A program made the translations under genes and the position numbers. A model generated the notes under the pieces. It made no database searches, was not told the DNA's origin, and saw only the letters and a program-made list of their open reading frames with translations. From contig JAFZLC010000009.1 in the NCBI GenBank assembly GCA_017551675.1, positions 1 to 64,000 on the forward strand: DNA of 64,000 nt. The letters are read 5' to 3'. Position 1 is the stretch's first letter; every line of letters begins with the position of its first letter. This stretch comes from Paludibacteraceae bacterium. GTDB taxonomy: Bacteria; Bacteroidota; Bacteroidia; Bacteroidales; Paludibacteraceae. This document shows positions 33,031 to 53,585 of this stretch, piece after piece.

Positions 33031-33456
33031 TTATTTTCTTCGATATGGGATCAAATTCAATCCCTGCTTTGTATAAAACTGGAATTTACGATCGCAAGAA
33101 ATCAAGGGCATACGATTGCAGATGGCATGAGCGATGATGATGTGATCGCTTGGATCTCGATGGTCTTCTGCTGTATTGATGGAAAGGTTAGCGTATGTTT
33201 GCATCTGTTCCTCTTTTAATGGTAGAATTGTAAAATAATATACATTTTTAATCGTGTGTATTATATCTGAAATTGATTTGCATGATTTAAACGATACACC
33301 TTTGCATCTATAGGCAATAATTAGTTCTTTAATGCTTTCTATACTGATGCAGAATTCATTGTCATAATCTTCGAAGATAGATTGTATGTCAGGTCCAAGT
33401 AAATCAGGGTCGTTTGCTAAAAATAGAAAAGTACAAGTATCAACCAGGTATCTCAT
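33031..33456 (-). CDS. PIN-domain ribonuclease toxin (VapC-like)
   Basis: About 141 residues of PIN fold: MRYLVDTCTFLFLAND with the first catalytic Asp, SIESIKELIIAY with the Glu, and the late acid cluster HRDPSDHIIIAHAICNRMPLISCDRKF. These acids bind Mg for RNA cleavage. ATG 33456 begins the first strand and overlaps the end of the small upstream gene by 17 bases, the usual coupling of toxin to antitoxin. The longer start at 33480 adds eight residues with no homology. The target RNA is unknown. Confidence 0.85.
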   Translation of the reverse strand: MRYLVDTCTFLFLANDPDLLGPDIQSIFEDYDNEFCISIESIKELIIAYRCKGVSFKSCKSISDIIHTIKNVYYFTILPLKEEQMQTYANLSINTAEDHRDPSDHIIIAHAICNRMPLISCDRKFQFYTKQGLNLIPYRRK

Positions 33457-33613
33457 TTGTTTTACTTTGTTTGAGTTCATTTAATAAAGTTACCCATTTG
33501 GGATAGGTGAATGTGATTTCACCTTTATGCTTTAATATAGCTTCCCATGTCTTGCTGACCTTTTTCTCATTTTTCTTTTCAATAGCTTTTTTTTCATTGT
33601 TAATTGATTCCAT
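33440..33613 (-). CDS. 57-residue putative antitoxin of the PIN module
   Basis: Reading from ATG 33613 gives MESINNEKKAIEKKNEKKVS... to a TGA that overlaps the PIN start. It is highly charged with a Lys/Glu-rich first half and a short second half containing FTYPKWVTLLNELKQSK. Small unstructured proteins coded just ahead of a PIN toxin usually bind and neutralise it. No DNA-binding domain is evident. A promoter -7 box (TATCTTTG, 33653-33660) lies about 40 bp upstream. Confidence 0.6.
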   Translation of the reverse strand: MESINNEKKAIEKKNEKKVSKTWEAILKHKGEITFTYPKWVTLLNELKQSKTNEIPG

Positions 33614-33867: not shown

Positions 33868-34686
33868 CTAACACCAAACCTTGTTTAAGTCGTTATTTGT
33901 GGATAAGTGATCATTGTATTCCCTGATTGAAGAAAGTTTAATTTCTATATTTGAACATATTTTTCTCAATTGTGCAATAACAAATGATGCTGTTTGTGGG
34001 GGAATAAATGGAGAAATGATGATTTCTTTTATGAGATTCTCTGGCTGAATATCAATCTTTATTCCACTCTTTTTTGAAACCATACATAGCATCCTTATTT
34101 CCTGCTCTTGGTCATAATGAATAGATTTGTTAAATAGGAGTTGCTCATGAGTAGATAATTTATCATTCTTTCCATAATTCATGTCTGCAATGATTATGTC
34201 GCATGGTAATTTTATACTATCTGCTAAATCCCTTATTGTTGTCTTTATCCTACAGACTATATCATTACTCGAATATGTTTTCCACATAAGCATAGTTTCC
34301 CCTATTGACCCATCAGTTCTCTTGTCTAATGTCCAGCATTTCACACAGAGAGATAATAATATATCCATCTCTTTATCTCTCTCTTTCATCTGTATTTTAT
34401 CCTTATGGGAAAGGCAAGGTCTGAATTGTGGATTGTATGGATATTTTCTACAACCATATTTTTCGTCCAAATCAGAAAATTGTTTAATGCTAGGGATAAA
34501 CAGTTTCTTGTTGTAAAATAAATCTATCAGTCTAGACAAATCAATATATCTGTATAATGGAGTATCTTCAAGTAATGAAATATTATACTCTTTCAGATAA
34601 ATGGAAAAATCGTCAATTTTCTTTATTTTCTTCAATTTTGATTCATCTAGACCTATATCATTTATACTAATAGTCATCTGTTTCAT
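33868..34686 (-). CDS. DUF2971 family protein
   Basis: A 272-residue protein with the DUF2971 pattern: TPLYRYIDLSRLIDLFYNKKLFIPSIKQFSD at the start, SLCVKCWTLDKRTDGSIGETMLMWKTYSS in the middle, and KSIHYDQEQEIRMLCM towards the end. The domain is common in phage-defence and mobile regions, and its activity is not known. It stands alone on the minus strand between the PIN module and the paralogue pair. The trinucleotide W-T/W-K spacing and acidic QEQEIR element are conserved features of the family. Confidence 0.75.
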   Translation of the reverse strand: MKQMTISINDIGLDESKLKKIKKIDDFSIYLKEYNISLLEDTPLYRYIDLSRLIDLFYNKKLFIPSIKQFSDLDEKYGCRKYPYNPQFRPCLSHKDKIQMKERDKEMDILLSLCVKCWTLDKRTDGSIGETMLMWKTYSSNDIVCRIKTTIRDLADSIKLPCDIIIADMNYGKNDKLSTHEQLLFNKSIHYDQEQEIRMLCMVSKKSGIKIDIQPENLIKEIIISPFIPPQTASFVIAQLRKICSNIEIKLSSIREYNDHLSTNNDLNKVWC

Positions 34687-40097: not shown

Positions 40098-41153
40098 CTA
40101 TTCTATGATGCTCTCCGACTCCCCACTATGTCTCTTTCTATTTTTCTCCACCACCTCTTTCGATGTGTTGGCATAACAATAGATGCAGAAGTGGCTGCAA
40201 GTGTTATACATACCGATATCCTTGCTCATCATGCAACCGCAAGCTAGGCGTTGACCCTTATCCTTCATTTTTTCGGGAGACAAAGCCGGACGACTAAAAT
40301 CGGGTCCGAAGAGGCTATCCTGCTCAGGCAATTTGCCGTAGCTGAGGTAATAGAGCAGTTCCTTATCGTCGGACCATAATCGTTTCATCAATTCGCCATC
40401 GACACAGCGGTTATGTTCGATACCATATTGATCGAGGTCGATTTTCTCGCCACAAGTAGCCAGTTGCAGGTCCCAGCCCTCTTCATGCCAACGGTTGCGG
40501 CATTTAGCAAGTCCGTCGGCAATCTCATGCATCTGAGAGAGTGAGAACTCAGCCTGTTCGATGGTCTCTTTCGAGAAGTGAGACGAATCCTTCACGAGGT
40601 TGGTTTGCACCTTGCGGTAGCCAAGTATATCGATATAGCTGAAGACCAGTTTGTCGGTCAATCCTTTCAGTCGGTTGCCGAGGTTCCACACCTTCACAAG
40701 TAGGTCGCGGGGAGATAGCTCAGGGGTAACGATAAGCGGGTCGAAGCGCCAGATAACACGTTCCTTACCGATCAGTTCCGACAGTTGGCGGAAGGTCTCC
40801 ACCCGTTGATCCACGCTAGGCACATTCGGTTCGAAGCCCTCACGATCGTAGTCGTTGAAGGTGAATTGGAAGTAGTAATGAATGCCCCGTTCATCCAGTT
40901 CATGCAGTAATGGTAGCAGCGGACGAGGGTTTTTCGTCCAGAAGACCACCACCTTACAGTTTTGGAAGGAGATGTACATTGGTTTCTGGTTGAACGGATT
41001 GTACCACACGCAGTAACCCGCCCGCAATCGGTTGATGAACCATTGCGCATAGAACGCCGGCACGTCCGTCGACCGACTAGCGGAGATGATGACGGGGGCG
41101 GAGGCCTCAACGATTTCACCAGATTGTATTTTTATGGGAAGTTTTTCGGGCAT
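40098..41153 (-). CDS. DUF1848 family protein, radical SAM-like
   Basis: A 351-residue protein of DUF1848. The N-terminus has ISASRSTDVPAFYAQWFINRL and YNPFNQKPMYISFQNCKVVVFWTKNP, the middle GKERVIWRFDPLIVTP. The C-terminus has CGCMMSKDIGMYNTCSHFCIYC, with C-x3-C-x2-C ending in a radical SAM-type cluster site. The order (barrel first, cluster last) is that of a permuted radical SAM fold. The biochemical role is unknown; members often occur in anaerobes. Its -7 box TATCTTTG is at 41199-41206, with a TTG at -33 inside the 49-bp repeat. Confidence 0.8.
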   Translation of the reverse strand: MPEKLPIKIQSGEIVEASAPVIISASRSTDVPAFYAQWFINRLRAGYCVWYNPFNQKPMYISFQNCKVVVFWTKNPRPLLPLLHELDERGIHYYFQFTFNDYDREGFEPNVPSVDQRVETFRQLSELIGKERVIWRFDPLIVTPELSPRDLLVKVWNLGNRLKGLTDKLVFSYIDILGYRKVQTNLVKDSSHFSKETIEQAEFSLSQMHEIADGLAKCRNRWHEEGWDLQLATCGEKIDLDQYGIEHNRCVDGELMKRLWSDDKELLYYLSYGKLPEQDSLFGPDFSRPALSPEKMKDKGQRLACGCMMSKDIGMYNTCSHFCIYCYANTSKEVVEKNRKRHSGESESIIE

Positions 41154-41311: not shown

Positions 41312-42853
41312 TTATTCTACAATCTCCCAATGTCCGCCTTTGTCACCACCAACACGTCGAATGACATTATTCTTCCTTAACTTTTTGGTGTTCCAATAGA
41401 CACCATCCTCTGTAATATCACATGCAACGGCCAGTTCCTTATTGGTGATTTGGGGGTTCTTCTTCATTAGCCTAATTATTTTCTCCGTAGTTTTCTCCGT
41501 AGTTTTCTCCGTAGTTGTTTTACCCGTTTTCGTAATTGTCTCCTTGGTTATAAGGCTATTCTTTTCGTTAATATCAGGAGCAAGTTTTTTGTCACAACCA
41601 ACATGTATAGGGATATGAATAAGGAACGTCAGACGATCTTCCGTAGTCTCAAAGGTGGCACGAGGAGAACCATTGGCTGTCAGTTTCTCTTGAATAGTGG
41701 GAACTCCAGTTGAACGGCCTTCCGTCAAATCCAGTTCTTTTAAGAAGTCACCTAAACGGCGGTTGCGATAACGTCGGCTCTTCAAACTGTCGCCTTTTTC
41801 AATAGCTGACATGGGAATGCTACGGTCTGGCCCTGGACAGTTGAGAATAGTAATTCCATCAGGCTCAATGGTTATTTCCACTGGTTCGTGTTGCTGATAG
41901 TCTCTATGATACATCGAGTTGACGACAGCTTCTTCTATTGCGTCATACGGATAGTTCCAGAACCGGTTAGCTTCTTGTTGTCCAGACACTTTCTGTACTG
42001 TTTCGTAAAGGACATTTGTTTCCAAATAATCCATTGTCTGCTTAACAATCTGTGGAACACTTCCTTTGAATGTTTTTTCTGTGAAGTTATGAGGATTCTT
42101 CACTTTCCCTTCGGGAAACGTCACAATATCAATCTGTGTATAAGGGAAGAACTTCTCGGGATGCTCACAGAACATCATTGCCGCCACGTTCTTGATTGTG
42201 CGATTTTCTGTTGAACCAGTCATCAGTTCCATTTGCTCCAGTGTTTCCACCAAGGGTTGTGTAAAAAGTGACGCTTCCAGTTTGCTTCCAATAGTAGCCA
42301 GATAGTCACGTAGCAACACCATCGAGATGTCGCTCATGGCAATGCTCGGGTTAGAACGTTCATCGAAAGGCACACGATTGGTCATATCCCTCAATTCGTC
42401 AAGCACTTCTCCTTTGGCGATGATGCTGCTTGAACCGCTGCGAATGAAATACCGCATTTGTTTCACTTTGGCCGTCACATCCTGAGGTATGGCATAAGGT
42501 CGGTTCACACCAGACGGTGCCCATATCACCAATACCTGTTGACCGTCCACCACCTCTACAGAAGTTCGTGGCAAATAATACGGGTCAAACATATTGTTGA
42601 ACCCCACCATCTGCTTCAGTATCCCATCCACCACCTCAATATTGATACCTATGACAGGTCTTTTAGCGATACCATATTCGTTCTCTTCAACACCCACAAG
42701 CACATAACCGCCCCCGAGGTTGTCAAAGTCATTGGCAAAAGCGCAAATGCTGTGGTAGATGTCCGCAGGATTCCACCCTTTCTTAAACTCAATCCTGTTC
42801 CCCTCGACCTTCCGCTTATTCAGCAGATCTTCTATGTTAATTGGTAATGCCAT
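41312..42853 (-). CDS. AlbA_2-type ATPase/transcriptional regulator (Schlafen AAA_4 family)
   Basis: A 513-residue protein. The AlbA_2/DivIVA-like N-terminal domain has RKVEGNRIEFKKGWNPADI and GGYVLVGVEENEYGI. A middle YPYDAIEEAVVNSMYHRDYQ is the HATPase-like segment (GHKL) of this family, with TILNCPGPDRSIPMS. The C-terminal winged helix (NPQITNKELAVACDITEDGVYWNTKKLR) is preceded by TTEKTTEKTTEKI, coded by 12-bp repeats. These proteins are widespread in defence islands and their function is debated. Its promoter (TATATTTG) is at 42898-42905. It lies between two 49-bp direct repeats, suggesting independent insertion. Confidence 0.82.
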   Translation of the reverse strand: MALPINIEDLLNKRKVEGNRIEFKKGWNPADIYHSICAFANDFDNLGGGYVLVGVEENEYGIAKRPVIGINIEVVDGILKQMVGFNNMFDPYYLPRTSVEVVDGQQVLVIWAPSGVNRPYAIPQDVTAKVKQMRYFIRSGSSSIIAKGEVLDELRDMTNRVPFDERSNPSIAMSDISMVLLRDYLATIGSKLEASLFTQPLVETLEQMELMTGSTENRTIKNVAAMMFCEHPEKFFPYTQIDIVTFPEGKVKNPHNFTEKTFKGSVPQIVKQTMDYLETNVLYETVQKVSGQQEANRFWNYPYDAIEEAVVNSMYHRDYQQHEPVEITIEPDGITILNCPGPDRSIPMSAIEKGDSLKSRRYRNRRLGDFLKELDLTEGRSTGVPTIQEKLTANGSPRATFETTEDRLTFLIHIPIHVGCDKKLAPDINEKNSLITKETITKTGKTTTEKTTEKTTEKIIRLMKKNPQITNKELAVACDITEDGVYWNTKKLRKNNVIRRVGGDKGGHWEIVE

Positions 42854-43032: not shown

Positions 43033-43156
43033 TTTGCTTTAATGGGGGGAAAGTAGTAATTTTACAAACGGAAAGTGTATGTGGAGTTATGAGAAATTCA
43101 AATATGGGTTACCTGTGAATTTTTCGAAAAACTTGAAAATGATATCGAAATCAATT

Positions 43157-43471
43157 ATGGAAACAAGTAATAACACAGAAATCATTCCATTCTCAGCAGT
43201 TCATCCTACGGAAATCATTAAAGATGAGATAAAAGCAAGAGGAATATCACAAAAGGAGCTAGCTATCAGAATGGGAATGAAGTCCTTTAATCTGAACAAG
43301 CTACTCAAGGGGGAGAACATCACTCCTGCTATTGCTGCTAAATTAGAGTTGGCGTTAGATATTCCTTCTGATTTCTGGTTAAACCTACAGTCTCAATATG
43401 AGATAGATTCTAAGAATGTGGCTTTAAGAAATGAGTTTGAAACAGATGCTAGTATAGATAGGATTATTTGA
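43157..43471 (+). CDS. higA: HigA-like XRE antitoxin, orphan
   Basis: About 104 residues of the HigA branch of XRE regulators: FSAVHPTEIIKDEIKARGI, then the helix-turn-helix SQKELAIRMGMKSFNLNKLL and NITPAIAAKLELALDIPSDFWLNLQSQYEID. ATG 43157 is preferred because it starts the antitoxin domain; ATG 43079 would add 26 residues. No complete HigB toxin is found on either side. The element TTATGAGAAATTCA upstream, shared with the other 49-bp repeat, may be a piece of one. A terminator follows. Confidence 0.75.
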   Translation: METSNNTEIIPFSAVHPTEIIKDEIKARGISQKELAIRMGMKSFNLNKLLKGENITPAIAAKLELALDIPSDFWLNLQSQYEIDSKNVALRNEFETDASIDRII

Positions 43472-43647: not shown

Positions 43648-46600
43648 TTATCCTTCCAGAAAATCTTGTACACAATCAAACATATCTGCATCTAACCGCA
43701 TATCATCTCGATAGTGTATAATAAAGTTAATCTTCGTTTTAAACAAGGTATTGTTTACCGAGTAGAGATAGTCGTTCAGTGCAATCAGTTCTTTGATTAA
43801 CCAGTCATGCTTCCGCATCATCCAGCTACAGAGTATAGTACAATTTTTTTCCGAACAGTCATCAGAACCTGTGATTCTAATCCGAAGGCAATCCTCCTGC
43901 TTTTCGTTTTTCAATTTACATCCTTTGCATCTCTTTGCTTTTTTTGCTACCGTCAATTGTTTCACATTTAAGTATAGCTCTATATTTATTTCTTCAGTAA
44001 TTGGCTTGTCACCCATTCCTGCTTTTTCATCGGTGGTATAATCTGTTTTTAGTACTATTTTATCCGTCACCAAATGTGATATCCAATGAAACTTTGATGT
44101 GGCTGACAAATTTCTCAAATTTTGTCTCAACAAATGATAGTTTACTCTATCATTTGCCACATCAAGTAAGTCTGCCAATCTGATGAGAATCATCAAGTAT
44201 TTCAAACTTATTGTGTCATCTTGAGCCCTTGACTTGAGCCCATAAACATCCATTACATCATATCCATGGCTCTCTGATACTTTAGCTACAAAAGACAACA
44301 AGGTCGGCTCTAAATAGTTTAATAAAGAATTGGATCGTTCACGAATAAACTTGGCACTATCCTTGGCATGGTTATCTCTAACCAAAGCCTCGAAATATCC
44401 ATACACCTCATTGAACACCTTGATTAAGAAATTGCCAGCATCTTTATAACGAGAGTCCTTTTTACCAGTATAGTCTATCTCATCAAATTTTCCGACCTCT
44501 TTTTCCATTTGGAGCATTAAGTCCGCAATCAAAGTCATATTCTTTCCACTTTCAGAACTTAACCTACCCAAATCCGGATGAATGACCATGCTGATGTCGT
44601 GCAAATAGCACGCTAGAAAAAGAATATAATAATCTACATTCTTTAATGCAAAATAGTCAATTCTATTCGTTAATTCCAATGATTTTGTGATAAGTGTAAC
44701 AGCGTGCTCTTCATTATGCAGCGTGTAGGAGTTTAGAAATTTAGAACCATTGTACCACAATCCTTTCGTAAGTCGATGAGTCACAATCAACGAATCCACC
44801 CATTCTGGATTACGAACATTCCTGATGAATAGATTCAGTACTTCAAGCACTCCAATATCAATCCCCATTTGGTTGGAAATGTCTTTTTCATTTATATGCT
44901 CTACAAACTCTTCAAATTGCTCCAAATCAAAGTTTTTATTCCTCAAATAGGCTAATATTCTAAGTTCTATGTACTTAAATCGTCTGGCATTCTTTTTTGA
45001 TAAAGACAATGAATCCGAAGGAATGACATCTATGATTTCTGAAAAAAACACATTCAATATCTTACGCTGATATTCAGCAGAGGCTTTCATCACAAATTGT
45101 GTAAAATGCGCCTCTGCAAAACCTTGATTCCGCATTTTGCCTATGCAGTCCTTAGTATCTTTGTCCTCCGATTTTTCAATAGACAGAAATTCCCGCAACT
45201 TGCCTAATTGCTTGTCTGTCTCCATACATTTTAGGCTCTTAAAGTTCTCTCTGGCCCATCTTATTAGAGATACATAAGAATCCTGGGACATCGATTTAAT
45301 TATACAAGATGTCTCCACATCCTTAGCATAGAACAGAGAATCCTGTATTCCTTGTACATTTACATTACAATTATGTAGTAACTGTTTTTCAAACTCAATT
45401 ATCTTCTGCTTGAAATCTTCAGCCTCTTTCTTTCTAAGATTTTGGATAATAAGACGATATTCTGTCTTAAAAATATCCTCTTCATACTGCTCGAAGAATT
45501 TTTCAGGATCATTAGCTTTCTCTAAGAAACGTTCACAGAAATCGTCCATATTTGGATTACCTTCTTCTCTGATTTTCAATAGTCGATTGCGATAAAGGAA
45601 GTATTTCTTAACCCTTCGCAAGAGTTTAAGTTTTGAAGCGAGCACCTCACCGTTCTTTTCTTCTTTCGCTGCGTCATTCTGTTTATCGACAAGTTTGCCA
45701 ATCTCACGAGAAATAACTTTGTCTAGAGCTTCCAATTTAACTAGAGACACATGATCGTCTATTTCATCTAAATTATACGACAGATCCGAGTTCATGTATG
45801 TTTCTCTAGTTATATTTGCTATTGGTCCATATTGGTTATCTGCATCATCTATATGAGTAAAGGTACTTTTACCTTTTTCGTGGAATTTAATCGTATAATC
45901 TAATTTAGATTGAAAAGCAAGGCTGTCTTCATTGACAAAATTAGGGAGTGTATTATTGGCCTTTTTTGCTTTCTTGCATTTCTCTTTTAAGCTATCATTA
46001 AGTGCATCGATTCTATTCTTAAACTTGTCCTCATCCAGTTTAGACTGGATATATATGACAGAGTCATCAACATAGAAATATGCATCTCCTTTAAAGGTAT
46101 TATCCTGCATCAAAAGACGTTTAATCTCTATCATGCAAAGGTTGCCAAAGAAGTAAGATTGAGGCAACCCCTGTGGTATTCCATAATTCATGTATTGATT
46201 CGTGCCAGATAAGTCAGTTCCTTCTGGATAATAATACTCTTTCCAAGGCTTAATGTTTTTGGAGGACATGTTGAAATACAACAATTTGACCACAGCACAG
46301 CAAAGTCCATTCTTATCGGTGTCGTATGTTTTCGATAGTTTACTGATGATGTAGTCATACATCATTTTAGGAGAAATAGACGGAAAAAAATTTTTGATAT
46401 CCAAACTTACTTCAGTCTTGTAGTTATGGTTCTTTTGGTATGTCCTACAATGTTCAATAATCTCATCGGTATACTCTTTGTATTTTGTCTGCCACTTGTG
46501 AAATAAATACTGAACATTCGTACAAGGAATATTTCCATAGAAATTGTGGGGCAGCAATTTAGACAAGTCTGATAGTTTTCTAACCCCTTTATCTAAGTCG

Positions 46601-46998
46601 TCATCAAACATTAAACAGTTCAAGATACTTACCATACAAATCAAATCTATCAGTCTTGCCGTGTGTATCGGGCGAAAGCCCAATTTATCATTTTCGTATT
46701 TCTTGATTTTGAAATATACTGTTATATCAAACAAGTTTTCCTTGTCTGACATTACCCATTCCAACCGTTGGTGGCAACATTTTATAACCTTAGAAATCAA
46801 GTCTATATTATGCTTATCAGCGAGTGCATAATATAATTCGAGGTCATTGACTGCAATTGTTTCCTCCACATTGCCTTCATTATGGAGACATACAGGTTCC
46901 GCTGTGTCCAACAAACCTTTGTCGAACACATACGATTCCATGCAGAATATCGAATTGAAGATATTCCGTTCGTCTAATATCTTATCAAACAATTTCAT
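43648..46998 (-). CDS. reverse transcriptase fused to an HD-type domain
   Basis: An 1116-residue protein. Its first third is a reverse transcriptase: VSLDIKNFFPSISPKMM (about 197-213), GIPQGLPQSYFFGNLCMIEI (273-292) and YFYVDDSVIYI with the YVDD catalytic pair (309-312). A long helical middle follows. The last third contains an HD domain of the HD-CE type: HNEEHAVTLI (~758), ACYLHDISMVIHP (~800) and MILIRLADLLDVANDRV (~940). RTs of this long, helix-rich sort occur in antiphage systems (Abi/DRT/UG groups), and HD domains there act as nucleases or phosphohydrolases. The start overlaps the partner gene by 14 bases. I cannot assign a named group. Confidence 0.82.
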   Translation of the reverse strand: MKLFDKILDERNIFNSIFCMESYVFDKGLLDTAEPVCLHNEGNVEETIAVNDLELYYALADKHNIDLISKVIKCCHQRLEWVMSDKENLFDITVYFKIKKYENDKLGFRPIHTARLIDLICMVSILNCLMFDDDLDKGVRKLSDLSKLLPHNFYGNIPCTNVQYLFHKWQTKYKEYTDEIIEHCRTYQKNHNYKTEVSLDIKNFFPSISPKMMYDYIISKLSKTYDTDKNGLCCAVVKLLYFNMSSKNIKPWKEYYYPEGTDLSGTNQYMNYGIPQGLPQSYFFGNLCMIEIKRLLMQDNTFKGDAYFYVDDSVIYIQSKLDEDKFKNRIDALNDSLKEKCKKAKKANNTLPNFVNEDSLAFQSKLDYTIKFHEKGKSTFTHIDDADNQYGPIANITRETYMNSDLSYNLDEIDDHVSLVKLEALDKVISREIGKLVDKQNDAAKEEKNGEVLASKLKLLRRVKKYFLYRNRLLKIREEGNPNMDDFCERFLEKANDPEKFFEQYEEDIFKTEYRLIIQNLRKKEAEDFKQKIIEFEKQLLHNCNVNVQGIQDSLFYAKDVETSCIIKSMSQDSYVSLIRWARENFKSLKCMETDKQLGKLREFLSIEKSEDKDTKDCIGKMRNQGFAEAHFTQFVMKASAEYQRKILNVFFSEIIDVIPSDSLSLSKKNARRFKYIELRILAYLRNKNFDLEQFEEFVEHINEKDISNQMGIDIGVLEVLNLFIRNVRNPEWVDSLIVTHRLTKGLWYNGSKFLNSYTLHNEEHAVTLITKSLELTNRIDYFALKNVDYYILFLACYLHDISMVIHPDLGRLSSESGKNMTLIADLMLQMEKEVGKFDEIDYTGKKDSRYKDAGNFLIKVFNEVYGYFEALVRDNHAKDSAKFIRERSNSLLNYLEPTLLSFVAKVSESHGYDVMDVYGLKSRAQDDTISLKYLMILIRLADLLDVANDRVNYHLLRQNLRNLSATSKFHWISHLVTDKIVLKTDYTTDEKAGMGDKPITEEINIELYLNVKQLTVAKKAKRCKGCKLKNEKQEDCLRIRITGSDDCSEKNCTILCSWMMRKHDWLIKELIALNDYLYSVNNTLFKTKINFIIHYRDDMRLDADMFDCVQDFLEG

Positions 46999-47692
46999 TT
47001 TCTGTGATTTTCTTAGTTTGTTTATTTAACATATCAAAAACAGAATCTATAAGCCTCACCATATCAGAGGGTTCTTTCCTACTGCAAGCCTTTAACAAAG
47101 TATCCTTGACTTTTACAATGATAATATAATCGCTCTTCGCTTTTGCTAAACGATTAAAGTTTTCCCAAAGCAAACGAGCTTTAACAAATGGTTCCTCGCA
47201 AGTAAGTTCTACATCTAAAATGTCATGAAATAATACATGAATGTTTTTTTCTGGCCATAGTTTACCAGATAGCAAATTAATGTCAACAAGTACGTTATTA
47301 AAAAAGCGAATAGAATTAACAAGAAAATCTATATAGTTAGTTCTGCATTTCCTCATGTAATTCCACGAATAGTCAAACTGTGGATTTTGAGAAACAAAAA
47401 ATAAGTAACCCGACAATTGTTCGTCGCCATCCACTTTTGTTTCAATAGCATTTCTTAACAGTTCGTTATCTTTATAGTTTTCTGTTTCGTATGATTCTGC
47501 CAAATAAGACAGCATTTGAACCACAATTAACTTCGATTGGTACTCACGCAGATATTTGTCGCCAGTCTCAAGCTTTTCATTGTCCTCTGTCGGCGCTGTT
47601 AGTATGTCATTACGCAGCATGTCAAAGGAATAACTCATCTTTTCTATATCAGTCTTTTTATTATTCTCATCCATAATATAGAAATACTTCAT
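46985..47692 (-). CDS. partner protein of the RT-HD gene, unknown
   Basis: A 235-residue, helix-rich, soluble protein (SYSFDMLRNDILTAPTEDNE, QSKLIVVQMLSYLAESYETE, WNYMRKCRTNYIDFLVNSI). Its last 14 bases overlap the RT-HD start, so the two are made together. An ATG at 47674 is a possible alternative start. No recognised domain is visible. Pairing of an RT with a small accessory protein is common in RT-based defence. Its promoter region has an imperfect CACCTTC/GAAGGTG stem near 47726. Confidence 0.6.
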   Translation of the reverse strand: MKYFYIMDENNKKTDIEKMSYSFDMLRNDILTAPTEDNEKLETGDKYLREYQSKLIVVQMLSYLAESYETENYKDNELLRNAIETKVDGDEQLSGYLFFVSQNPQFDYSWNYMRKCRTNYIDFLVNSIRFFNNVLVDINLLSGKLWPEKNIHVLFHDILDVELTCEEPFVKARLLWENFNRLAKAKSDYIIIVKVKDTLLKACSRKEPSDMVRLIDSVFDMLNKQTKKITENEIV

Positions 47693-47798
47693 TTATTAAA
47701 TCAGTTACTGTTAATTCTCACCTTCCCCTAAGGAAGAGAAGGTGGAAACGGACGGAAAATGTAAACCACCCCCCTTCCTACATTCTTTTTTCTTATTA

Positions 47799-48065
47799 TT
47801 AATCAGAGTGTCTAGGCTCATAGTATTCATAATCACTATCATAATCATTATATTTTGAATCACTACACATCTTTAAATTAATGATAACATATACTATTAA
47901 GCCACCTACTAAAAAAATTTTAAAAAGGCTATTAATGCAGCCATCATTACTAGTATCTCTCTGAACGCCAGTCTCTTTAGCCTTTTTGGACTCATTGTCC
48001 AAATGGTTAAAAAGCAAGAGCAATCCACCAAAGCAAATGATTCCTATTATATACACATATATCAT
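47799..48065 (-). CDS. small two-helix membrane protein
   Basis: An 88-residue protein with two hydrophobic segments (YVYIIGIICFGGLLLLFNHL and LFKIFLVGGLIVYVIINL) separated by a charged loop, and an acidic, Tyr-rich tail (YNDYDSDYEYYEPRHSD). It follows the HxsA precursor gene by 88 bp on the same strand. The role is unknown; it could hold the modified peptide or its exporter in the membrane, but nothing in the sequence shows that. Confidence 0.6.
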   Translation of the reverse strand: MIYVYIIGIICFGGLLLLFNHLDNESKKAKETGVQRDTSNDGCINSLFKIFLVGGLIVYVIINLKMCSDSKYNDYDSDYEYYEPRHSD

Positions 48066-48153
48066 ACTTTATTATATTAATTATTATTTAGATGAAGTGG
48101 AAGGTTGTCTCATATGATGACAACAACCTTCCCAAAAGCAACTCTATCACTTA

Positions 48154-48405
48154 TTAGTAACTACTAGAATAGTGCGAAGAGTGAGAACGATGTGAGCTGT
48201 GTGATTGGTGAGATCTATGTGAATAATGAGCATTCACATCATTTCCCGTATTCACAGGCTGCTCCAAAATCAATAACTGCTCTTGGTCAGAAACTGATAC
48301 TTCGCTGTTGTTTGTAACCTTTGCAATTACATCCTTGCTTAGATTAGAAGCATACGAAGCCCCTGTGAGAAGAGCAGAAATCAACAGAAATAACACTTTC
48401 TTCAT
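48154..48405 (-). CDS. hxsA: His-Xaa-Ser repeat precursor (HxsA-like), exported
   Basis: An 83-residue precursor. The first ~20 residues (MKKVLFLLISALLTGASYAS) form a signal peptide. The middle is an ordinary acidic leader (LSKDVIAKVTNNSEVSVSDQ). The end is a His-Xaa-Ser array, SHRSHQSHSSHRSHSSHYSS, in which nearly every third residue is His or Ser. In Hxs systems the two radical SAM enzymes HxsB and HxsC act on this array. A GGAGG site precedes the start. It lies 41 bp after hxsC in the same operon. Export of the peptide means it is modified either before secretion or with periplasmic fate. Confidence 0.85.
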   Translation of the reverse strand: MKKVLFLLISALLTGASYASNLSKDVIAKVTNNSEVSVSDQEQLLILEQPVNTGNDVNAHYSHRSHQSHSSHRSHSSHYSSSY

Positions 48406-48446
48406 TGAACCTCCTTTTTAATGTTAAACAATAAATGAACTATCAC

Positions 48447-49592
48447 TTAAACACAGGGTGAACCTGTGATATCTTCTGTTTGTGGATTAATGTATATACT
48501 ATGATGCTCTTGGTTTGAAGCAAATAGTCCTCCACATTTTTCACGAAGTTTACATGCTTCGCATTCTGGCAGATATGTGTCTTTCCAATCTGAAATAGAG
48601 CAGATGGCAAAACGCCTGATTTCAGAAGGCAATACACATAACTGAGCGTTGTATATTTGCGTGCAAATGCCCCGATTTGCCAGTGAAAGAACAGCTTGTT
48701 TTAATTCATCGTTATAATCGTGTGGGTCTATCCACAATTCCTCATAGTTTGTATTTGCATTGCCTGTTGTTTCCATTTGCATAAAGGCAACTTGACTTAC
48801 AAATGGGAAATTATGATAGATGAAATCTGATAATTGTGGCAACCGTTTATAGGTTAGTTTGTGCATTACGATTCGTAGCCCAATACGTTGATGGAACAAT
48901 GCTAAATTATACAGACCTTGAACGGTTTTATAGAAGGTATTAGCCCCCACAATGTGATTGTGTTCATCTGCTATGTCCGAGAATATTGGTACATCAATTT
49001 GTAAATCATGATGCCCACATTGTGCAAGTTTTAGGGCGTATGATTTATCCGCAAATTTCACTCCATTGGTCAACAAACTTATTCCCGCCTTAGGTTGAAA
49101 CTTTTGAATCTGCCGTATTAACTCAAATAGTTTATCTCCTAACAAGGTGGGTTCTCCCCCTGTTATTCCAATCTCTTTTGTATGTTTGTCAATCAGTGAA
49201 ATAAGTTTCAGATTGAAAGCTGTTTTGTCTTTTTCTGTGGGTACTGGTGGTTGTGGACACATAATGCAATGGTGATTACATCGTCCTGTGGCAAATATAG
49301 CATTATGCGATGATTTGATCTCATAGACGAAAACTATTTCACCTTTCTCGTTTATCAAAACCACATCACCCTCGTTAAACTCATCAAGTCTTTTCACATT
49401 ACTTACACATGGTCTTCTCTCACTAACAGAATTACTATTGGTTATGAGTGCAGAATATCCCCATGGCACATGTGTTGCATCTTTTTTTACGAGAATGGCA
49501 TCTTTGCGGTTAAGAATATTCTTACCATTTAGTGTGATTCGTCCAAGAATGTCAGTTTTAATATTGATTGGAGTTCCATTTATCTGTTTCAT
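48447..49592 (-). CDS. hxsC: His-Xaa-Ser system radical SAM maturase HxsC
   Basis: A 381-residue radical SAM enzyme. The cluster motif C-x3-C-x2-C lies in GRCNHHCIMCPQPPVP (about 108-123), and GITGGEPTLLG follows as the SAM-binding loop. The C-terminal SPASM-like cysteines are in ECEACKLREKCGG. N-terminal TPINIKTDILGRITLNGKNI is the start typical of HxsC. It would work with HxsB to install thioether, carbon-carbon or epimerised links in HxsA. The product chemistry is not known from sequence. Confidence 0.85.
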   Translation of the reverse strand: MKQINGTPINIKTDILGRITLNGKNILNRKDAILVKKDATHVPWGYSALITNSNSVSERRPCVSNVKRLDEFNEGDVVLINEKGEIVFVYEIKSSHNAIFATGRCNHHCIMCPQPPVPTEKDKTAFNLKLISLIDKHTKEIGITGGEPTLLGDKLFELIRQIQKFQPKAGISLLTNGVKFADKSYALKLAQCGHHDLQIDVPIFSDIADEHNHIVGANTFYKTVQGLYNLALFHQRIGLRIVMHKLTYKRLPQLSDFIYHNFPFVSQVAFMQMETTGNANTNYEELWIDPHDYNDELKQAVLSLANRGICTQIYNAQLCVLPSEIRRFAICSISDWKDTYLPECEACKLREKCGGLFASNQEHHSIYINPQTEDITGSPCV

Positions 49593-49599
49593 ATTGTTA

Positions 49600-51021
49600 T
49601 CAGTTTATCCAAGACCAAAATATTCTGTTTATCTCGGGGTCATGTTTATTCAACAATTCAAATAGGTGGTGAATGATTGCAGTATTTTTCTTGCACATGT
49701 CACTCGTTGGTCTATGACCTATTACATCTCCCTGTTCAGAGTAGTTGCGTACAGGATCTGCTCCGCAATAAGGTTGAAACACACATTCCGAACACATTGG
49801 CAAACACTCTGTACATGCATTTTCAATGACATAATGCAGTTTCTCGCCATTGAACATTGATTGATAGTCATCCTCATTAACATTACCCAACCTAAAATAG
49901 TAGTCTTTGAATCTTGCAAGCATACGTCCTTCATCAGCTACATAAACGTTACCGTCCCAATCATATATTGCTCCAGCTATGCCTACACCTGCGGGAGACT
50001 GCAAGTCTACAAATCCTGTGGCAAATGGTGTAAGAATTCGTCTTAAAAGCAGAGCCGCATAACCTTCTATGAAGAAAATACCTTTCTTGTTTAATTCTAT
50101 GATATAGTCCAGTCCCTCTTTAAAACTTTCTATGAAATCTTCAACAGGGTATGCTATCTTGTCTTTGTACTGTTTTGCAAAACCGTATGGGTTCAGTGAG
50201 CGGAGAAAAATGTTGTTAAAGCCCATTCGAACATATTCGTCTATTATATCTTTAAAATGCCCGATGCTATATTTCGAGGTGGTCATTAGAGCAGATACAC
50301 TATCGCTCCCGTAAATCTCACGAATCATCTTGATGTTTTCCTCGAACTTTTCATGTGTTTGATTGTTGCCTTGTAATGGACGGTTTATATTGTGCAGTTC
50401 CTTGGGGCCATCAAGAGAGGTTGAGATGTCACATTTGTGCTTTTTTAGATATTTTACCATGTTAGGAGTCAACAATGTTATGTTGGTGCAGATTACAAAC
50501 CCAAGGTCTTTCTTCTTAAATAGATTTTGCCATTCTGCTTCCTCTATGATATATTTTACCATATCGAAATATGTTGAAGGGTCACCTCCTTGGAATTCAA
50601 CTTTAATGCAAGGAGAAGGGGACTGGAAGATGGTCTTCACCACATTCTTTGCTGTTTGTTTCGTCATGTCAGCTTCATGGTCGTCCATGTTCTTTCGTGC
50701 CACTTGACAATATATACAACTGGAATTGCATCGTAAGGTTGGGACAACCATGTGAAGACTAGTAAAATCGCGGAGGATGCTTTTCTTCGTCCTGAACTTT
50801 GTGGCAAGCATGTTTACGACATCCTTTACATTGTCTACAGTGGCAATTTGTTTTGATGCTATATCTTTGAACACTTTAGACTTTGTGTCAAGTTCATTGT
50901 TAACAAATTTTTCAAAATCTTCATCACACAGAAAGATATATTCACCAACATCATTAGTCAGCAAATACTCTGATTCGTTGAATCGACTGAAACGAAAGGG
51001 TAAGATCTGATATTTGTTCAT
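49600..51021 (-). CDS. hxsB: His-Xaa-Ser system radical SAM maturase HxsB
   Basis: A 473-residue radical SAM enzyme. It starts with the peptide-binding-like LPFRFSRFNESEYLLTNDVG that marks HxsB. The cluster site is TLRCNSSCIYCQVARKN (about 96-112), with EFQGGDPSTYFDMVKY after it. The C-terminal SPASM region (CTECLPMCSECVFQPYCG, then CKKN) carries the auxiliary Fe-S ligands. It overlaps the HxsD gene by four bases (ATGA) and HxsC follows 7 bp later. It likely recognises the precursor and modifies its His or Ser. Confidence 0.86.
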   Translation of the reverse strand: MNKYQILPFRFSRFNESEYLLTNDVGEYIFLCDEDFEKFVNNELDTKSKVFKDIASKQIATVDNVKDVVNMLATKFRTKKSILRDFTSLHMVVPTLRCNSSCIYCQVARKNMDDHEADMTKQTAKNVVKTIFQSPSPCIKVEFQGGDPSTYFDMVKYIIEEAEWQNLFKKKDLGFVICTNITLLTPNMVKYLKKHKCDISTSLDGPKELHNINRPLQGNNQTHEKFEENIKMIREIYGSDSVSALMTTSKYSIGHFKDIIDEYVRMGFNNIFLRSLNPYGFAKQYKDKIAYPVEDFIESFKEGLDYIIELNKKGIFFIEGYAALLLRRILTPFATGFVDLQSPAGVGIAGAIYDWDGNVYVADEGRMLARFKDYYFRLGNVNEDDYQSMFNGEKLHYVIENACTECLPMCSECVFQPYCGADPVRNYSEQGDVIGHRPTSDMCKKNTAIIHHLFELLNKHDPEINRIFWSWIN

Positions 51022-51341
51022 TTTGACACTGGTTTAAATGCTTCTTCAACTATTAAGTCACGAATGTGACCAAATTGTTGATTCGTATTGTAACGTATTT
51101 GTTGATCAATGAGTTCATTGCAGAATTGTTTGACAATCTCTTCAGAAACGACATTATTGTTTTTGGACTCGAACACAATAATCACAGTCCCTTCTTCCAT
51201 ATGTTGATGTATATAGAATCGTTCTGTAAACTTGTAGCATGCAGCAGTTATAGATTCTTTTGCGTATAAAGCAAGATCTACATTCACCTGAAATTTATTA
51301 CATTCAAGACATGTGACGGGAAATTCAATTTTTCGTTGCAT
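51018..51341 (-). CDS. hxsD: His-Xaa-Ser system protein HxsD
   Basis: A 107-residue protein with the HxsD pattern: an N-terminal KIEFPVTCLECNKFQVN and VDLALYAKESITAACYKFTERFYIHQ, where the Ala-Cys-Tyr-Lys stretch is conserved. It then has VIIVFESKNNN and VSEEIVKQFCNELIDQQIRYN. HxsD is of unknown chemistry and is always coded next to HxsB and HxsC. It is the first gene of the operon. The right copy of the repeated RNA lies just upstream, its terminator ending about 45 bp before the start. Confidence 0.83.
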   Translation of the reverse strand: MQRKIEFPVTCLECNKFQVNVDLALYAKESITAACYKFTERFYIHQHMEEGTVIIVFESKNNNVVSEEIVKQFCNELIDQQIRYNTNQQFGHIRDLIVEEAFKPVSK

Positions 51342-52367: not shown

Positions 52368-53585
52368 TCAATCATTTTTATCGTCTTTATTCATCAAACG
52401 TTTTGTTTCCTGCAACTCCCTTTGCAAGAGGCGTACACGTTCAGCCAATTGCTCTTGGCTTGGCAAGGCATCCTTGATTCTGATGTTGTTATACGTTGCC
52501 ACACCCATTGGAGTGTTGATGCCTTTGAACGACCATTGAACGTCTGCGCGATTCATATTCGAACAGACCAAAAGACCTATAGTCGGATTATCATCTGGTT
52601 GTTTAAGAACTTCGTCTACAGCGTTTACATAGTAGTTTAATTTGCCAGCAAATTCTGGCTCAAACGTTCTTGCCTTTAGTTCGCACACTATGTAGCAACG
52701 CAGACGAATATGATAGAAAAGCAAATCGATTTTTCTTGTCCTACCTCCAACAATTATTTCTTTCTGTTTGCCGAGAAATGCAAAACCGTTGCCCATTTCA
52801 AGCAACAGTGCCGTAATGTTGTCGTGAAGGGCTTTCTCCAATTCGCTTTCATCGTAAGTTTCGTGATCCACTGTTGCAAAGCCAAAATCATAATTTTCCT
52901 TCACCACATACTGCGCTATTTGTGCCAATTGAGGTGTTAGGTGCTGCGGGAAATTATTGGGAACTGTTCCTTGCTTTTTGTAAATACCATCTTTCATTAC
53001 GCGCGTCAATATTTCGCGGCTAATTCCTTCTCTAATGGTGTAACCAACATAAAACAAGGCCTCTTCGATTGTTTCCGAATGCTGGACAATACGAATATGG
53101 TGCCCCCATGGCACGCAAGCAAACGGCAGGGGGAATTCTGAAACATGCTGTTTCAGTTTTTCTTCATCTGCTATCTGCTTGATTTTCTTGTCATAACTGT
53201 CATCAGGCAACATTACTGAAACAAGTTGTTTCAGTTTTTCTAAATCCTCAGCATAGAACTGATACCACTGTTTCATATACCACAAATTGCGCACCGAAAA
53301 GTTTGTGCTGTCAGGAAACTCACGATTCAAATCCATGCTTACCTGCTCAACCACTCCAGCCCCCCATCGCTCCTCGGCCTTCTTTTGAACCAAGTCACAA
53401 CCAAGTTGCCAGTTGAATAAGAGTTTTTCCGCATTCACCTTGACAGCTGCTTTCACTTGTGCAGAACGATAGCGATGTTTAATATCAGCTATCCAATCCA
53501 CATAGTCCGCATCAATGTGTATATCATGAGACTTCACAATATAGGGTTCAGCCTGTGGCTGTACGTCTTTGTTTTTTTGCTTCAT
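52368..53585 (-). CDS. DUF1016 (YhcG family) nuclease
   Basis: A 405-residue protein with the N-terminal DUF1016 domain (SAQVKAAVKVNAEKLLFNWQLG, FPDSTNFSVRNLWYMKQWYQFY, LPFACVPWGHHIRIVQHSE). A C-terminal restriction-endonuclease-like domain has GGRTRKIDLLFYHIRLRCYIVCELKARTFEPEFAGKLNYYV with the D and E-x-K nuclease ligands. Such proteins occur near restriction-modification systems and in defence islands. It carries its own promoter (TAACTTTG, 53666-53673) with the same layout as the repeated RNA promoters. No methylase partner is seen. Confidence 0.85.
   Translation of the reverse strand: MKQKNKDVQPQAEPYIVKSHDIHIDADYVDWIADIKHRYRSAQVKAAVKVNAEKLLFNWQLGCDLVQKKAEERWGAGVVEQVSMDLNREFPDSTNFSVRNLWYMKQWYQFYAEDLEKLKQLVSVMLPDDSYDKKIKQIADEEKLKQHVSEFPLPFACVPWGHHIRIVQHSETIEEALFYVGYTIREGISREILTRVMKDGIYKKQGTVPNNFPQHLTPQLAQIAQYVVKENYDFGFATVDHETYDESELEKALHDNITALLLEMGNGFAFLGKQKEIIVGGRTRKIDLLFYHIRLRCYIVCELKARTFEPEFAGKLNYYVNAVDEVLKQPDDNPTIGLLVCSNMNRADVQWSFKGINTPMGVATYNNIRIKDALPSQEQLAERVRLLQRELQETKRLMNKDDKND

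Follow-up and report, generated by a model that had tools for sequence, protein, structure and literature searches.

A UG24 reverse transcriptase-HD gene pair lacking the DnaG-like primase gene that accompanies its relatives

The window analysed in this study is a stretch of 64,000 nucleotides from a Paludibacteraceae bacterium (contig JAFZLC010000009.1, one of 58 contigs that make up a genome of 3.3 Mb), and its minus strand carries a small partner gene followed by a gene for a reverse transcriptase (RT) with a C-terminal HD domain. The RT-HD protein belongs to the rare, already catalogued UG24 class and is not a new RT type. In relatives, the same two genes are preceded by a gene for a DnaG-like primase (CHC2/Toprim), and the window copy is the only one among 13 testable loci (12 others and the window) without it. 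Judging from the sequences, these genes most likely represent an RT-primase-HD anti-phage system, with the window copy as its derived or decaying primase-less form. We regard as probable the joint reading that UG24 is a DRT encoded by a cassette of primase, partner, and RT-HD genes extending from open reading frame to open reading frame, that its defence mechanism would be RNA-primed or RNA-templated, and that the window copy is a derived one without the primase.

The RT-HD gene (43648..46998, minus strand) is an open reading frame of 1116 amino acids with zero internal stops. RT motifs span residues about 150-400 and include SLDIKNFFPSI (residues 198-208), GIPQGLPQSYFFGN (residues 273-286), and YVDD (residues 309-312), and RVT_1 was matched above the cut-off in a genome-wide search (34.3 bits). 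HD-CE (PF24391) was found by Pfam at residues 757-984 (E 4e-26), and the 1116-residue RT-HD fusion with YVDD described by the sequence-only reading is thus borne out. The catalytic residues D200 and D311/D312 (YVDD) of the RT are invariant in all aligned relatives. H765, H800/D801, H877, H911, and D943 of the HD domain are invariant in 11 aligned relatives, and stay so when relatives of 37-40% identity are included in the alignment. The extreme C-terminal part (residues 1024-1057) has 4-5 conserved cysteines, which likely form a metal site. A sequence search of solved structures with the RT protein gave nothing convincing, and the AF2 model has a pLDDT of 45, which is too low for class placement.

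The PADLOC model RT_UG24 (PDLC03762, class DRT) covers residues 2-1115 of the 1116 with profile positions 3-1035 of 1036 at 1212 bits; the runner-up model was RT_UG17 (DRT10) with 38 bits. Relatives of 59% and 37% identity scored 1261 and 1216 bits with RT_UG24, respectively. Since this model matches the whole protein, the HD part included, the earlier view that no named RT type has this HD architecture had to be abandoned: an existing UG class has the same domain order. A group II ancestry, considered in the same reading, received no match to a maturase or intron RNA. The group II maturase, DGR, and retron families gave no good match, with no group II maturase or retron family reaching its cut-off in Pfam or NCBIfam. 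An Rfam search found no intron RNA. As background, group II intron RTs have a maturase domain and an intron RNA, and Class 1 DRTs (AbiK-like) have a C-terminal alphaRep domain and perform untemplated synthesis. In an RT tree composed of UG24, DRT1, DRT2, UG5, UG6, retron, and group II sequences, the UG24 clade is firm but its deeper position has a support of only 62/84, and UG24 is placed apart from DRT2, weakly. The class was found in the window and one other genome among 393 genomes of the order, and in 2 of 16 genomes of the genus; searches of plasmid and phage records for relatives of the RT came back empty. UG24 is named only in a classification table in the accessible literature, in which we found no experiment on its mechanism or on phage resistance, and action of the class against phages is a presumption.

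A genome scan yielded 11 relatives of the RT-HD protein with 59-89% identity, and the nearest organisms carrying the gene are Bacteroidales-type bacteria; more distant relatives came from viral contigs (L048, 37% identity, and L051). The two-gene unit proposed previously does recur in other genomes, but the ancestral unit has a third gene. In 12 of the 12 other testable loci (L036, L038-L046, L048, and L051, for which DNA upstream of the partner gene is present), the gene order is DnaG-like primase, partner, and RT-HD, with short gaps or overlaps between the genes. L037, whose sequence is cut inside the partner gene, was left out of this count. The primase is about 350 amino acids long, and its domains are CHC2 (zinc ribbon), DNAG_N (core), and Toprim; in Pfam, Zn_ribbon_DnaG and Toprim_2 are above the cut-off and DNAG_N is at or slightly under it, and DNA primases in PDB are matched by it. 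The zinc ligands C34/H37/C55/C58 and the acidic residues E260, D302, and D304 of Toprim are invariant. In the L048 primase (L048:4544-5290), the CHC2 zinc ribbon is absent, being either lost or never present.

Since the L036 primase scores 371 bits with the PADLOC family RTasDnaG-like (PDLC03800) and other matches of this type in 395 genomes reach at most 183 bits, the association of UG24 with a primase is to be regarded as already catalogued. Those other matches lie in open frames of 584-950 amino acids, all of the size of housekeeping DnaG, and were rejected as further members of the primase family. The L036 primase also scores 106 bits with the N-terminal part of RT_UG29. The DnaG-like accessory gene is a regularity seen among the relatives; the class itself is defined by the RT, and this gene forms no part of the definition.

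The partner gene was called as an open reading frame of 235 amino acids (46985..47692, minus strand). The 14-base overlap between this gene and the start of the RT-HD gene, pointed out in the sequence-only reading, is confirmed by coordinates and sequence: ATGAAATTGTTTGA (46985..46998, minus strand) is common to the end of the partner gene and the beginning of the RT-HD gene, an overlap through which the two may be translationally coupled. Because homology to the relatives begins there, the true start of the partner is probably M7, an ATG at 47675. The fold prediction gives a helical N-terminal half and an alpha/beta C-terminal part, and the AF2 model (pLDDT 75) has no meaningful fold match in PDB (best E 0.034, probability 0.30, TM 0.17). 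No family was found for the partner in Pfam, NCBIfam, or PADLOC, and the partner search found no homologue in viral contigs. Unlike the primase, the partner is uncatalogued in these libraries.

At the site that corresponds to the primase gene in relatives (47676..48153, minus strand), the window has an unrelated open reading frame of 88 amino acids (47799-48065) and non-coding DNA. No primase homologue was found in the window and no cognate primase elsewhere in the same genome, where the sole primase-like match is 23% identical and lies in a 667-amino-acid frame, the size of housekeeping DnaG. When the window is compared with L036, its nearest relative (89.7% at the DNA level), homology begins exactly at the partner start codon at 47675 and ends 4 nt beyond the RT stop. 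Upstream of the partner gene in the window come the 88-amino-acid frame and then genes of a His-Xaa-Ser peptide system. This is a seemingly complete RiPP system (48154-51341, minus strand) with HxsD (51018-51341), HxsB (49600-51021), and HxsC (48447-49592) on the minus strand, all above NCBIfam cut-offs, and a precursor-like small protein (48154-48405, minus strand) that ends in HSHRSHQSHSSHRSHSSHYSSSY.

The window junction was searched for in genus mates, plasmids, and other genomes, and no second instance was found; because it is seen in no other genome, misassembly could account for the apparent absence of the primase. We also considered and rejected a REP-like element at the junction, as the hairpin there is unique in the genome. 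On the branch leading to the window RT gene, 123 synonymous and 73 nonsynonymous changes were counted over 651 and 2697 sites, and omega is about 0.14 as compared with about 0.09 on the sister branch of L036, a difference that is not significant (Fisher p 0.17). The window RT gene is intact and has been under purifying selection over most of its branch, which does not give the date of the primase loss. We infer from these sequence comparisons that the form in the window is derived, having lost its primase, and that it either uses the host DnaG, is primed by a protein, or is in an early stage of decay.

Among close pairs of relatives, the homologous DNA is bounded by a point no more than 10 nt from the primase start and another within 2-8 nt of the RT stop, with the exception of L040-L041, in which homology extends some 100 nt into the preceding gene. 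No conserved flanking ncRNA was found beside the UG24 operon by comparison of the relatives' flanks and by Rfam search, since homology among the relatives spans only the region between the start codon of the primase and the stop codon of the RT. Several pairs, L041/L046 and L036/L038 among them, have near-identical or close cassettes in unrelated flanks with breakpoints at start and stop codons, and therefore the cassette moves as bare open reading frames without conserved ends or promoter. Inside the RT gene, the strongest structure after codon-shuffle correction (204 windows) is a possible RNA hairpin at codons 6-19, seen in 9 of 12 sequences tested. The inverted repeat, CGGAATATC...GATATTCTG (46941..46966, minus strand, RT codons 11-20), is conserved in most relatives, with L044, L048, and L051 as exceptions. 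Synonymous change is reduced at RT codons 11-50 (permutation p 0.0025, one of nine tests), and synonymous-constraint scans of the primase and partner genes were negative. An RNA element within the RT gene is a weak lead, and the hairpin may serve for translational control.

The description of the surroundings as a defence-type island holds for four of its genes, PIN (33031-33480), DUF1016/YhcG nuclease (52368-53585, minus strand; PADLOC candidate family PDC-S02), HigA-like antitoxin (43079-43471), and AlbA_2/Schlafen (41312-42853), but not for the suspected DUF2971 gene (33868-34686), which has no Pfam match and falls in PADLOC candidate family PDC-S31. Defence-type neighbours occur in several UG24 loci: YhcG/DUF1016-type nucleases accompany UG24 in three loci, namely the window and, directly upstream of the cassette, L036 and L039, and DUF4143-type ATPases, recognized by inspection of sequences, are near the cassette in two other loci. 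A DUF1848 protein (40098-41153, minus strand), which scores 133 bits with PADLOC RTasDUF1848 and lies 2.5 kb from the RT, was rejected as a third component because it is absent near other UG24 loci. A second RT of the same genome (G000 contig C58, L001:1132-3609) has its best match, at residues 102-433, to models of retron type XI/XII, and the remainder of its frame of more than 800 amino acids has no explanation. In L051/L084, the UG24 cassette stands amid four tyrosine-integrase-like genes, which suggests that it is carried there by a mobile element, and the L048 cassette adjoins a transposase-like gene.

Three other explanations have been weighed against the joint reading. It is possible, though less likely than not, that the window holds a remnant without function, in which recombination or insertion replaced the primase gene and the promoter, leaving two genes that are decaying and so far unbroken. 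The sole absence of the primase among 13 testable loci, the break exactly at the gene junction, and the slightly higher omega of the RT branch relative to its sister, which is not significant, point in this direction. Against it stand two intact open reading frames with every catalytic residue present, and an excess of synonymous changes that shows strong constraint over most of the branch.

It is unlikely, in our estimate, that UG24 is a Class 2-type DRT copying its own structured ncRNA in the manner of DRT2, DRT9, and DRT10, with the RNA encoded within the genes or provided in trans. The second-best PADLOC model is indeed that of UG17 (DRT10), and the reduced synonymous change at codons 11-50 and the hairpin shared by most relatives count in its favour; against this, the flanks are unconserved with homology ending near the primase start and the RT stop, the Rfam search was empty, and the tree separates UG24, weakly, from DRT2. 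A role in a mobile element instead of defence, as a group II intron, DGR, or retron RT or in element replication with the primase, is more improbable still. Mobile elements often carry DnaG-like primases, and the integrases around L051 and the transposase-like gene beside L048 agree with such a role, but no good match to group II, DGR, or retron families was obtained. The HD effector-like fusion, the YhcG/DUF1016 nucleases in three loci, the DUF4143-type ATPases in two others, and the mobility of a cassette that has no conserved ends are more in keeping with defence islands.

Under the preferred reading of an RT-primase-HD defence system, a mechanism can be proposed from the domain functions. 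DRTs of the RT type synthesize non-genomic DNA, and proteins with Toprim/CHC2 domains act as RNA primases. The HD family comprises metal-dependent phosphohydrolases or nucleases. During infection, the DnaG-type primase would put short RNAs on single-stranded DNA, and the RT would take these RNAs as primers or template for the synthesis of non-genomic DNA. The partner would serve as a scaffold or sensor, and the HD-CE phosphohydrolase/nuclease domain would be the effector or regulator that halts phage growth. The outcome would be abortive infection, in which the cell is probably lost along with the phage. The defence function, the RNA-primer coupling, and the effector role of HD are thus proposals, and the primer coupling is put forward by analogy. 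Pairing of an RT with a primase recurs in DRT7 as a fusion and in UG29 as a built-in DnaG-like part. We entertain only tentatively, as a rather doubtful version, that RNA from a dedicated DnaG-type primase is extended or copied by the RT with HD as output and an undescribed helical partner, and that the window copy is a natural primase-independent version of this system, which would then reveal the step served by the primase.

DRT synthesis modes described so far are RNA-templated, untemplated, and protein-templated, and an RT whose primers come from its own DnaG-type primase, if true, would be a further mode. What this analysis adds to the catalogued class is the arrangement of three genes, one of them for an undescribed partner, together with the lack of a flanking ncRNA and a natural primase-less copy. 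This arrangement, in which a DnaG-type primase is dedicated to the system and the partner is uncatalogued, defines a concrete minimal system, and the window copy is a natural deletion bearing on the need of the RT for RNA primers.

In comparison with known systems, the RT-HD protein shows no difference from RT_UG24 (PDLC03762), and the window copy differs in having no DnaG-like accessory gene. RTasDnaG-like (PDLC03800) and RT_UG29 are matched by the primase of relatives and have no counterpart in the window, and in UG29 the DnaG-like part is inside the RT protein, whereas in UG24 it is a separate gene. Conserved ncRNA is located beside the RT in DRT2, DRT9, and DRT10 (PMC12632851; PMC13174585). 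DRT10/UG17 resembles UG24 in its second-best RT-domain score and in combining an RT with an accessory protein (PMC12632851), but it depends on a SLATT protein and on an ncRNA encoded upstream, and UG24 loci were found to have neither. For UG10, no match to the window RT-HD protein was found up to E 1 in PADLOC, and no primase-polymerase domain was found in it by Pfam. DRT7/UG10, an RT-primase-polymerase fusion (PMC13213688), is like UG24 in pairing an RT with a primase-type enzyme; its fused primase is of another family, whereas UG24 has a separate DnaG/Toprim primase and an HD domain.
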